Shown here: positions 20,343-54,886 of the stretch, one piece after another
Position numbering within the stretch: position 1 is the stretch's first letter
Layout: every line of letters starts with the position of its first letter
Source of the DNA: an uncultured Veillonellaceae bacterium
GTDB taxonomy: Bacteria > Bacillota > Negativicutes > Selenomonadales > Selenomonadaceae
Reading direction: 5' to 3'
Length of the DNA stretch: 55,180 bases
Assembly: GCA_900316275.1 (NCBI GenBank)
Contig: ONCF01000100.1
Span: forward strand, 1-55,180
Translations under genes and position numbers: made by a program
The notes under the pieces: model-generated
Database searches by the model: none
Told to the model about the DNA's origin: nothing
The model's input: the letters and a program-made list of their open reading frames with translations, nothing else

Positions 20343-20765
20343 TTACTGTCCAGACCCCAGTGCCGTGTTGGCATTGATGCGAATGCCGTGCGGCAACAGC
20401 TCCTTGAGCTCGACGTGCTGCACATTGCCGCTCATGTCCGCCATGACGACCTCCGGCACATCGAACTCCGCCAGCAGCTGGCAGACGGCGCCGTTGGGGA
20501 TAAAGGGATGCTTGACATCGGCGATGACCACCAGGCCATCAAACTCCCGCTTGCCGTCGGCGATGGCCTTGTACATGGCCACCTCCTCCGCCGAGACCGA
20601 GAGCCGCGGGATGGAGTTCTCCACATTGCAGCCCGTGTAGAACGTGCCGTCGCTCGCGAGTGCGCAGGCACCCACGCCGATGCCGCCATAGGGGATGTAG
20701 GCATTTTTGATGGCGTCCATGGCCTGGCGCACCATCGTGTCGATTACAGCTTCCGTCAGATTCAT
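20343..20765 (-). CDS. cytidine deaminase homologue lacking zinc ligands
   Basis: The product has 140 residues and aligns end to end with short (CDD-type) cytidine deaminases: NAYIPYGGIGVGAC, the substrate motif TGCNVENS, then SVSAEEVAMYKAI and FIPNGAVCQLLAEF. In active enzymes the last two motifs are CAE and PCGACRQ, where three cysteines bind zinc. Here they are SAE (Ser58) and PNGAVCQ (Asn91, Val94), so all three ligands are gone; the proton-shuttling Glu60 stays. The DNA is clean with AGGAGGAAAG before the ATG, so it is an intact gene, not a pseudogene. It may be a nucleoside-binding or regulatory derivative, or use another metal site. The gene stands alone downstream of a DnaA-box cluster. 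Confidence 0.8.
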   Translation of the reverse strand: MNLTEAVIDTMVRQAMDAIKNAYIPYGGIGVGACALASDGTFYTGCNVENSIPRLSVSAEEVAMYKAIADGKREFDGLVVIADVKHPFIPNGAVCQLLAEFDVPEVVMADMSGNVQHVELKELLPHGIRINANTALGSGQ

Positions 20766-20906
20766 GTTCTTTCCTCCTGTTCTATTTGTCCCTGCTATTT
20801 GCGCTGAAGCGCGCCATATTTTCCCATATTGGTAATATTAGCTTTTTACAGGAAAAATCCTTTTAGTTAGCTAAAAAAATCCTGCATGCGCTCACCGTCG
20901 GGGAAT

Positions 20907-21152
20907 TTATCCACATAGTCATCCACAGTTGTGGATAAATCTCAGTCAGCTTACCGCTACATTCCAGTTTCCTACTATATATTAGGTCAAGGTTCAAGCG
21001 CCTGTGTGTAAATTGTGCGTTAAAAAACACCGGCAGGCAGTGGATAATGTGGATAAAACAGTTGATAACTCAAGATATGCCCGATTATCATCTGTCAAGT
21101 ACTACATCTTGTGGATAAGCGCGTTACTTTCTACCCTGTATCTTGTGGATAA
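20907..21152. promoter_or_regulatory. DnaA-box cluster remote from dnaA
   Basis: The 412-base gap between the deaminase and CYTH genes holds five exact TTATCCACA boxes: 20907-20915 (+), 20930-20938 (-), 21048-21056 (-), 21110-21118 (-) and 21144-21152 (-). Near matches lie at 20919-20927 (TCATCCACA) and 21039-21047. The first three have the same order and orientation (+,+,-) as the triplet beside dnaA at 54693-54724. An AT-rich stretch (about 20980-20996) lies within. No gene is visible here. It may titrate DnaA, regulate the neighbours, or be a second part of the origin. Confidence 0.75.
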
Positions 21153-53020: not shown

Positions 53021-53187
53021 TGTGGATAAATGTGGGCAGGCCCAAATTATCCACGGTTTGCCGTGTGCATAACGTGTGTGTAAATAGCTGCCCACTTATC
53101 CACAGTATCCACGGGAAAAAGCGGCCATGAGTTTATCCACAATCTATCTACAGAGTTTACGGCGGGTTCTCGACAGAGTTATCCACG
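53021..53187. promoter_or_regulatory. DnaA-box cluster between dnaN and dnaA (oriC part)
   Basis: The 276-base gap holds exact boxes (TTATNCACA) at 53021-53029 (-), 53064-53072 (-, TTATGCACA), 53096-53104 (+) and 53133-53141 (+). One-mismatch boxes TTATCCACG are at 53047-53055 and 53179-53187 (+). GTATCCACG at 53105-53113 is weaker. No gene is seen. Confidence 0.85.
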
Positions 53188-53209
53188 CCGCAGTGTGGGC
53201 GCACAAGGC

Positions 53210-54646
53210 TTATATTTTCTGTATCTGCTCCGACAGCTTCTTTAACGTATGTTCGAGCTTGGTGTCGGTCTGGCGGTCCGTACCAATCTTGTCACAGGCA
53301 TGGATGACCGTCGTGTGATCACGGCCGCCGAAGAAGTTGCCAATCTGCGGCAGCGAGGTATCGGTGAGCTCACGGCAGAGGTACATGGCAATCTGACGCG
53401 GGTAAGCGATATTGCGGTTGCGCTTCTTGGAGTGGAGGTCATCAATCTTGACTTTGAAATAATCAGCGACGACGTCCTGGATGAGTTCGATGGTGACAGC
53501 CTTTTTACGGTCCTTGGGCAGGATGTCCTTCAGCGTCTCGGCGGCAAGTTCCTGCGTGATGTCCTTGTTCATGAGCGAGGCATAGGCGACGACGCGCGTA
53601 AGCGCGCCCTCCAGCTCACGGATATTGCTGTCGATATGGTTCGCGATGTACTCGAGCACGGCGTTCGGCACGCTGTAGTGCTCCATCTGCGCCTTGTTGC
53701 GCAGGATGCCGATGCGCATTTCAAAGTCCGGCGGCTGAATATCGGCGATGAGGCCACCCGCGAAACGGGAGCGCAGACGTTCATGCAACGTCGCCAGCTC
53801 TTTCGGTGGACGATCAGAGGAAATCACGAGGGCTTTTTCTGCGTCTTTTAATTCATTGAACGTGTTAAAAAATTCCATCTGCGTACTTTCTTTGCCGGAG
53901 AGGAACTGAATATCATCGATCATCAACACGTCAATCTTGCGATATTTGGCCCGGAAACGCTCGGTATGGCCGCTGCGGATGGCGTCGATGAGCTCGTTCA
54001 TGAATTTTTCACTGGAGACGTAGAGCACGCGGCGCTCGGGATGGTTCTGCAACACGCGGTTGCCGATGGCGTGCATGAGATGGGTCTTGCCCAGGCCCAC
54101 GCCGCCGTACATGAACAGCGGGTTGTACACCTTGCCGGGGGCCTTGGCCACGGCCTGCGCCGCCGCGTGGGCGAGCTGGTTCGAGTTGCCCGTTACGAAC
54201 GTCTCAAACGTGTAGCGCGTGTTGAGTGAGGAGTTGTCGCCCGGCGCGATGACCTGCGGCCATTTCTGCTGCGTCTCCTGGGTCTCCGGCTGCGGGGCAG
54301 CCGCCTGGCTCTCGGCTACCGTCTCAGCCTGGGCCGGTGCGGCGTCCATCAGCGTGAGCTGCTCCGGCTCAGTGTCCGCAGTATCTTTGGCTTCGGGCAG
54401 CGTCTCGATATGCACCTGATGCGAGCTGCCCACAATAGCCGTCGTGGCATCGCGCAGGATGGTCAGGTAGTGGTCGTTGATCCAGTCGCGGGTAAAGTCG
54501 TTCTTTGAGCCCAGCACCAGTGTCGTATCATCCAGGGAGAGCGGCCGGAGGGGCACAATCCATTTCTCGCAGGCGGGCTTGGCCAGTGACTCCTGCGTTT
54601 TTTCCAGAATCTGTGCCCAGACGGTCTGCAGCTGCGTCTGTTCCAT
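53210..54646 (-). CDS. dnaA: chromosomal replication initiator protein DnaA
   Basis: The product has 478 residues with the four DnaA domains: domain I (1-80, VWAQILEKTQESLAKPACEKWI), a Glu/Gln/Ala-rich linker (81-135), the AAA+ domain (from NTRYTFETFVTGNSN; Walker A YGGVGLGKTHL at about 180-190, Walker B VLMIDDIQFL, sensor SSDRPPKEL) and the DNA-binding domain with signature ELTDTSLPQIGNFFGGRDHTTVIHA. It opens the origin. Start at 54646 with AGAAGGA before it; an ATG at 54712 would lie inside the DnaA boxes. First gene of the left-going replication cluster. Confidence 0.97.
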   Translation of the reverse strand: MEQTQLQTVWAQILEKTQESLAKPACEKWIVPLRPLSLDDTTLVLGSKNDFTRDWINDHYLTILRDATTAIVGSSHQVHIETLPEAKDTADTEPEQLTLMDAAPAQAETVAESQAAAPQPETQETQQKWPQVIAPGDNSSLNTRYTFETFVTGNSNQLAHAAAQAVAKAPGKVYNPLFMYGGVGLGKTHLMHAIGNRVLQNHPERRVLYVSSEKFMNELIDAIRSGHTERFRAKYRKIDVLMIDDIQFLSGKESTQMEFFNTFNELKDAEKALVISSDRPPKELATLHERLRSRFAGGLIADIQPPDFEMRIGILRNKAQMEHYSVPNAVLEYIANHIDSNIRELEGALTRVVAYASLMNKDITQELAAETLKDILPKDRKKAVTIELIQDVVADYFKVKIDDLHSKKRNRNIAYPRQIAMYLCRELTDTSLPQIGNFFGGRDHTTVIHACDKIGTDRQTDTKLEHTLKKLSEQIQKI

Positions 54647-54681
54647 AAGCGAATAAATCCTTCTTTCCCAGCGAAAAAAAC

Positions 54682-54886
54682 TGTGCATAAAATTATCCAC
54701 ATAATTATCCACAACTGTGGATAATTTTCAAAAGCGCCTCAATTGACGCTGATATTATATTAGTAGGAAGCTAACAGGCACAGTTGAGTTTTCCGCACAC
54801 TAATCACCAATATCTTAGCAGATAAGGCGTTTGTTATCAACATGAATTTCCACCAGTTATACGCAGCATGCTGCGGTTTATCCACA
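54682..54886. promoter_or_regulatory. DnaA-box cluster upstream of dnaA (oriC part)
   Basis: In the 402-base gap between dnaA and rpmH are boxes at 54682-54690 (-, TTATGCACA), 54693-54701 (+), 54705-54713 (+), 54716-54724 (-) and 54878-54886 (+), all exact. Between them are an AT-rich stretch (about 54750-54764) and a perfect 14-bp palindrome CGCAGCATGCTGCG (54862-54875). Boxes this close to the dnaA start also suggest autoregulation. Confidence 0.85.

Follow-up and report, generated by a model that had tools for sequence, protein, structure and literature searches.

The gene cdd2, which lies on the minus strand at 20343-20765 of the window (the entire 55,180-nucleotide stretch of DNA analysed here, from an uncultured Veillonellaceae bacterium), encodes a cytidine deaminase-fold protein in which all three zinc cysteines have been replaced, and is very probably a conserved, non-deaminating paralogue. 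Cdd2 is a real family, of ordinary fold and unusual fate: its zinc-less members are orthologues of zinc-bearing proteins, the ligands were lost once, the active site has drifted, purifying selection has persisted, constraint has been gained elsewhere in the molecule, and in one genus the protein occurs without canonical Cdd. Zinc-less Cdd2 probably serves as a pseudoenzyme in a binding, regulatory or scaffold role, with a partner docked through the face that carries its DGT and DGKREFD motifs; the specific docking-face mechanism is put forward more tentatively.

A deaminase-like protein without zinc ligands

The cdd2 open reading frame runs from its ATG at 20765 down to the stop at 20343 and encodes 140 aa; the plus strand over the same interval is an unrelated frame. 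The Shine-Dalgarno sequence AGGAGG stands just 5' of the ATG (20773-20778, minus strand), in agreement with the intact frame, length and ribosome site that the initial annotation had attributed to the gene. When the protein is aligned to B. subtilis Cdd, in a reference sequence that agrees with the PDB chains, Ser58, Asn91 and Val94 take the places of the ligands Cys53, Cys86 and Cys89, and Glu60 that of the catalytic Glu55. The first ligand position falls in S58-A59-E60 (20586-20594, minus strand; C53-A-E55 in B. subtilis Cdd), with Cys changed to Ser and Glu kept, and the other two in PNGAVCQ (residues 90-96; 20478-20498, minus strand), where the cysteines of PCGACRQ have become Asn and Val. 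The nucleoside-ribose motif GCNVENS (residues 45-51; 20613-20633, minus strand), which drifts across the clade, is kept in the window protein together with N47 and E49, the equivalents of the ribose contacts N42 and E44. In the pocket, F24, Y48, R56 and F125 have given way to I29, P53, E61 and I128. GCNVENS, SAE, PNGAVCQ and the three replaced cysteines are thus exactly as first described, in a description that had left out the minus strand. Cys95 of PNGAVCQ was considered as a shifted zinc ligand and rejected, because the zinc-intact orthologues read PCGACCQ and the residue therefore descends from a non-ligand neighbour.

At the family level, the protein scores 32.9 bits against Pfam PF00383, over the cut-off, and its AF2 model (pLDDT 93.1) adopts the cytidine deaminase alpha/beta fold. 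The top PDB fold matches are all cytidine deaminases, the best being E. faecium CDA (EfCDA; 8x6u, TM-score 0.82) and B. subtilis Cdd (1jtk, TM-score 0.79 by query length, rmsd 1.5), and the fold is also retained in the AF2 model of a strongly diverged member of the g11 type (pLDDT 91.3). The window protein therefore resembles the tetrameric cytidine deaminases (T-CDA; B. subtilis Cdd, E. faecium CDA; EC 3.5.4.5) in fold, length, ~37% identity, GCNVENS and the catalytic Glu, but differs from them by the lack of all three zinc cysteines, Arg56, Phe24, Tyr48 and Phe125, and by a score of 89.2 bits against the curated equivalog TIGR01354, under its cut-off of 113.65. Since the zinc ligands were tested and found absent, the protein stands outside the functional cytidine deaminase class. 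It nevertheless reaches 87.8 bits against the looser NF004064 (cut-off 74), so automatic annotation would name it cytidine deaminase. To judge from sequence, more than 100 proteins that should not deaminate carry this label. Pyrimidine salvage modelled from rumen genomes would be misjudged on such labels, above all for g11, where they may hide the loss of that step. PADLOC gave no match, and a link to defence was rejected.

The initial annotation had also proposed a search for a second, canonical Cdd in the same genome. One is present (G000:C65:971-1342, with CAER and PCGACRQ), and the window gene is therefore the second paralogue, Cdd2.

A single loss of the zinc site

The phylogeny was reconstructed with a careful tree computed without the ligand columns, and a quick tree was also run. 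Cdd2 forms one clade apart from canonical Cdd (support 100/100). Nested inside it, the zinc-less members occupy one side of a single branch (99/89), with the zinc-intact L090 as their sister (100/96), and one change accounts for their state in 100% of 200 bootstrap trees. The gene neighbourhood of CYTH, MgtC, LytR-type, malic enzyme and gyrA genes is common to zinc-intact and zinc-less members; the window locus has CYTH, LytR-type, malic enzyme and gyrA, and MgtC is absent from it. Tree and shared neighbourhood together indicate a single loss of zinc, from an orthologue that was previously a zinc protein.

Zinc-intact Cdd2 was read in Anaerovibrio (g3) and in g5, g13, g16, g18, g19, g20, g26 and g27, and zinc-less Cdd2 in g1 (the genus of the window), g2, g11, g14, g22-g24 and g28-g30, a clade that includes Selenomonas ruminantium, S. 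bovis, S. ruminis and rumen MAGs. The zinc-intact proteins of Anaerovibrio and its relatives share with the zinc-less ones the clade (100/100), the neighbourhood and a DGT plus DGKREFD-type signature, but they keep CAE, PCGxC and Cys53/86/89, which is why, on their sequence, they are probably still active or dual-role deaminases.

The expectation that the altered motifs would mark a clade was borne out for the zinc-less state as such; SAE is not clade-wide, and PNGA[VI] is confined to Selenomonas subclades. Same-clade homologues with Cys, which had been named as evidence against the original reading, do exist, but only deeper within Cdd2, in Anaerovibrio and others, whose Cys forms represent the ancestral state. 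A sequencing error, the other objection raised at the outset, or a lone mutation was rejected, given that the ligands are also missing from orthologues in many independently sequenced genomes.

MgtC lies upstream of cdd2 at many Cdd2 loci; where it adjoins the gene, it usually ends 21-118 nt before it on the same strand, which suggests that the two are co-transcribed. In L025-L027 (S. bovis-like MAGs) a shortened MgtC and Cdd2 are read as one open frame of 357 aa. This fusion was set aside as a functional clue, as cdd2 keeps its own AGGAGG and ATG there and the three genomes are near-identical; the joined frame may be accidental. In the S. ruminantium group, a gene of ~160-180 aa with no Pfam match lies directly 3' of cdd2 on the same strand (L052, 1884-2438, reverse strand of L052, plus ~27 other loci).

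Drift of the active site after zinc loss

The loss of zinc was accompanied by extensive variation in the former active site. Position 53 holds P, S, F, T, A, G, M, N, Q or C in zinc-less members, position 86 D, N, S, A or C, and position 89 S, V, T, I, A, C, L, G or N. Arg56 is lost in 110/110 zinc-less sequences, and F24, N42, Y48 and F125, nearly constant in canonical Cdd, undergo 9-20 changes each in the zinc-less tree. It has been demonstrated that each of the EfCDA mutations C55S, C88S and C91A abolishes activity (PMC11007441). From the drift of the pocket together with these mutants, it can be strongly inferred that the zinc-less proteins do not deaminate cytidine. The original suggestion of a Cdd-fold protein that is intact, under selection and free of deaminase activity is in this sense supported by sequence.

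Two functions that elaborate on other suggestions made there fare less well. In the first, Cdd2 would be a nucleoside or nucleotide sensor that binds cytidine-like ligands without turnover and signals their level. Such binding or sensing is possible for the window protein itself, with N47, E49 and E60 kept, and many members of Selenomonas subclades retain N-x-E-N. It does not hold as the function of the clade, because the N42 and E44 equivalents have become T/S/A/R and D/Q in many members and F24, Y48, R56 and F125 have drifted or been lost; moreover, Glu55 is replaced by Gly or Ala in 12/110 zinc-less sequences, including several Selenomonas lineages close to the window. A sensor role is therefore quite unlikely. 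In the second, the old zinc site would host a new metal site or chemistry, for example at the acidic E55/D86/E87 set of g11. All 53 sequences newly read from that genus keep Glu, and their second ligand position is occupied by D or N, with E or D as the usual next residue. This proposal is highly improbable and the claim of a new chemistry unsupported: the site varies by subclade (N/V, S/S, A/S, D/T etc.), so many residues occupy the ligand positions, the same 12 sequences have lost the Glu, and the window protein is devoid of the acidic cluster.

Purifying selection and newly constrained positions

Selection was gauged by dN/dS in pairs of species that carry both genes and whose synonymous sites are unsaturated. 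Zinc-less Cdd2 gave 0.03-0.12, and canonical Cdd of the same genomes 0.002-0.03. These values, together with intact frames, led to the rejection of a decaying gene. That the gene is dying, as a functionless pseudogene of recent or slow origin, would fit with its faster evolution than canonical Cdd and with its absence from some close relatives. It is hardly credible, however, for a clade that spans the family with intact frames, low dN/dS and ribosome sites (an SD-like motif lies 5' of 46/54 zinc-less members), and in which at least 12 positions stayed invariant over 15.6 substitutions per site. Among the listed open frames of closely related strains, no broken copies were seen.

The constraint on zinc-less Cdd2 has in part been gained. 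The zinc-less tree holds 15.6 substitutions per site versus 7.9 for canonical Cdd, yet among 53 sites that are variable in canonical Cdd, seven (N21, D39, T41, R73, F75, D76 and G113) changed there once or not at all. D39, G40, G71, K72, F75, D76 and G113 are invariant in 110/110 zinc-less sequences, and T41 and R73 are each found in 109/110. The window protein carries this Cdd2 signature, DGT plus DGK-R-x-F-D, in two elements. D39-G40-T41 (20643-20651, minus strand) forms the beta1-beta2 turn, invariant in Cdd2, with 0, 0 and 1 changes at its three positions versus 6, 2 and 6 in canonical Cdd. D70-G71-K72-R73-E74-F75-D76 (20538-20558, minus strand) forms the alpha2-beta3 loop, near-invariant in Cdd2 and variable in canonical Cdd. 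Zinc-intact Cdd2 already shows no change at D39, F75, D76 and G113, and the greater part of the new constraint is therefore older than the loss of zinc.

In the secondary structure, the zinc ligands lie at the N-termini of alpha2 and alpha3, and the D39-T41 turn and D70-D76 loop at the other end. From the predicted secondary structure and the fold topology we infer that DGT and DGKREFD share one exposed face opposite the zinc site. The gained constraint at DGKREFD could instead serve folding or oligomer stability.

Distribution and absence of the canonical enzyme

Cdd2 is found in about 132 of 189 Selenomonadaceae genomes, as called by family-level matches with E no higher than ~5e-34, a range that canonical copies, at 2e-28 or above, do not reach. 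By genus, ~27 genomes are zinc-intact versus ~105 zinc-less, a tally in which part of the genomes was assigned per genus and the rest read sequence by sequence. No Cdd2 was recognised outside Selenomonadaceae among 380 genomes of the class, where 20 of the best outside-family matches were read and all proved to bear the cysteines and to fall outside the Cdd2 clade. Given that it is missing from the near-complete relatives G004, G165 and G010, Cdd2 is dispensable. Additional Cdd duplications exist within the family: G015 carries two separate Cys-bearing copies over the TIGR01354 cut-off, and G182 three Cdd-type copies.

The genus g11 (G053-G118), where canonical cytidine deaminase is missing from most genomes, deserves separate consideration. 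Zinc-less Cdd2 is carried by 61 of its genomes, with canonical Cdd present in 11 and none shown in the other 50; at least 10 of these 50 are >=90% complete and <=5% contaminated (G058, G071, G078, G079, G080, G082, G091, G092, G095 and G101). The pattern suggests that cytidine salvage has been lost or rerouted in g11.

This distribution bears on the possibility that Cdd2 is the non-catalytic subunit of a mixed tetramer, comparable to ADAT3 beside ADAT2 or to the C-terminal half within the chain of E. coli CDA, and tunes the activity of canonical Cdd. Cdd2 is predicted to keep the tetramer fold, its conserved alpha2 alanines could pack at subunit contacts, canonical Cdd is also present in most carriers outside g11, and the tRNA deaminase ADAT2/3 offers a precedent (PMC7713142). 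The 50 g11 carriers that show no canonical Cdd mean, however, that the partner is not always in the same genome, and therefore that helping canonical Cdd as a subunit does not by itself account for Cdd2, at least in g11. Furthermore, the pocket of E. faecium CDA is lined by residues from loops and C-termini of the adjacent subunits (PMC11007441), and the positions that Cdd subunits contribute to the active site of the neighbour (Y21, Y48 and F125 in B. subtilis) have drifted in the zinc-less clade. A mixed tetramer is thus unlikely.

Origin of Cdd2 and relation to other deaminase-fold proteins

In the reading that we favour, a pseudoenzyme that docks a partner, a Selenomonadaceae ancestor would have come to carry tetrameric cytidine deaminase in a second copy, Cdd2. 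While that copy still bound zinc, it would have gained the constrained DGT and DGKREFD surface, placed by topology at the opposite pole from the zinc site. A single event in one of the descendant lineages then removed all three zinc cysteines; the deaminase pocket decayed freely, while strong purifying selection continued to act on the fold and on the residues of the opposite pole. Zinc-less Cdd2 would dock its putative partner through the DGT/DGKREFD face. Taken as a whole, Cdd2 may be a new free-standing family of Cdd-derived scaffold or regulatory proteins, which took on a non-catalytic function opposite the active site when it was still an enzyme, later gave up zinc and catalysis, and replaced its parent in one rumen genus, where the dead version alone is left, a proposal that we advance with some reserve.

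Retained dead enzymes are well studied among kinases and proteases, and little is known of them among bacterial cytidine deaminases. In dimeric CDA of the E. coli type, the non-catalytic C-terminal half derives from Cdd and has no working zinc site; it is a domain fused to the active one, whereas zinc-less Cdd2 is free-standing. To our knowledge no free-standing zinc-less bacterial Cdd is known, none was found described in a limited, incomplete literature search, and nothing relevant was found on bacterial pseudo-deaminases or on cytidine deaminase in Selenomonas. ADAT3 of the tRNA deaminase ADAT2/3 is a deaminase-fold protein that was retained after catalysis was lost (PMC7713142). Unlike Cdd2, ADAT3 loses Glu, keeps zinc and needs ADAT2; in zinc-less Cdd2 it is zinc that was lost first, Glu is often kept, and the protein persists without the parent enzyme. 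Zinc-bearing proteins of ancestral type and their zinc-less descendants coexist in culturable rumen bacteria, with constraint first and zinc loss later, and in one genus the zinc-less form persists alone. Together these circumstances make the transition from enzyme to non-enzyme directly testable.

DnaA boxes near cdd2 and the likely replication origin

The interval between cdd2 and the CYTH gene contains a cluster of DnaA boxes (20907-21152), with five exact copies of TTATCCACA and two with one mismatch, about 32 kb from dnaA. The cluster and its position are conserved across Selenomonadaceae, also in genomes without cdd2; the relocated g11 copies lack it. It was rejected as a clue to the control or function of cdd2: genomes without the gene have it just the same (G004, G028, G034 and G038), which makes it a feature of the chromosomal locus. 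Its appearance is that of a DnaA-titration or regulatory site outside oriC. The dnaA gene itself (53210-54712, minus strand; Pfam DnaA domains) has DnaA-box clusters on both sides (53021-54886), and dnaN, recF and gyrB adjoin its region. With these flanking clusters and a cumulative GC-skew minimum near 48-53 kb, the region at 53021-54886 is likely the replication origin.
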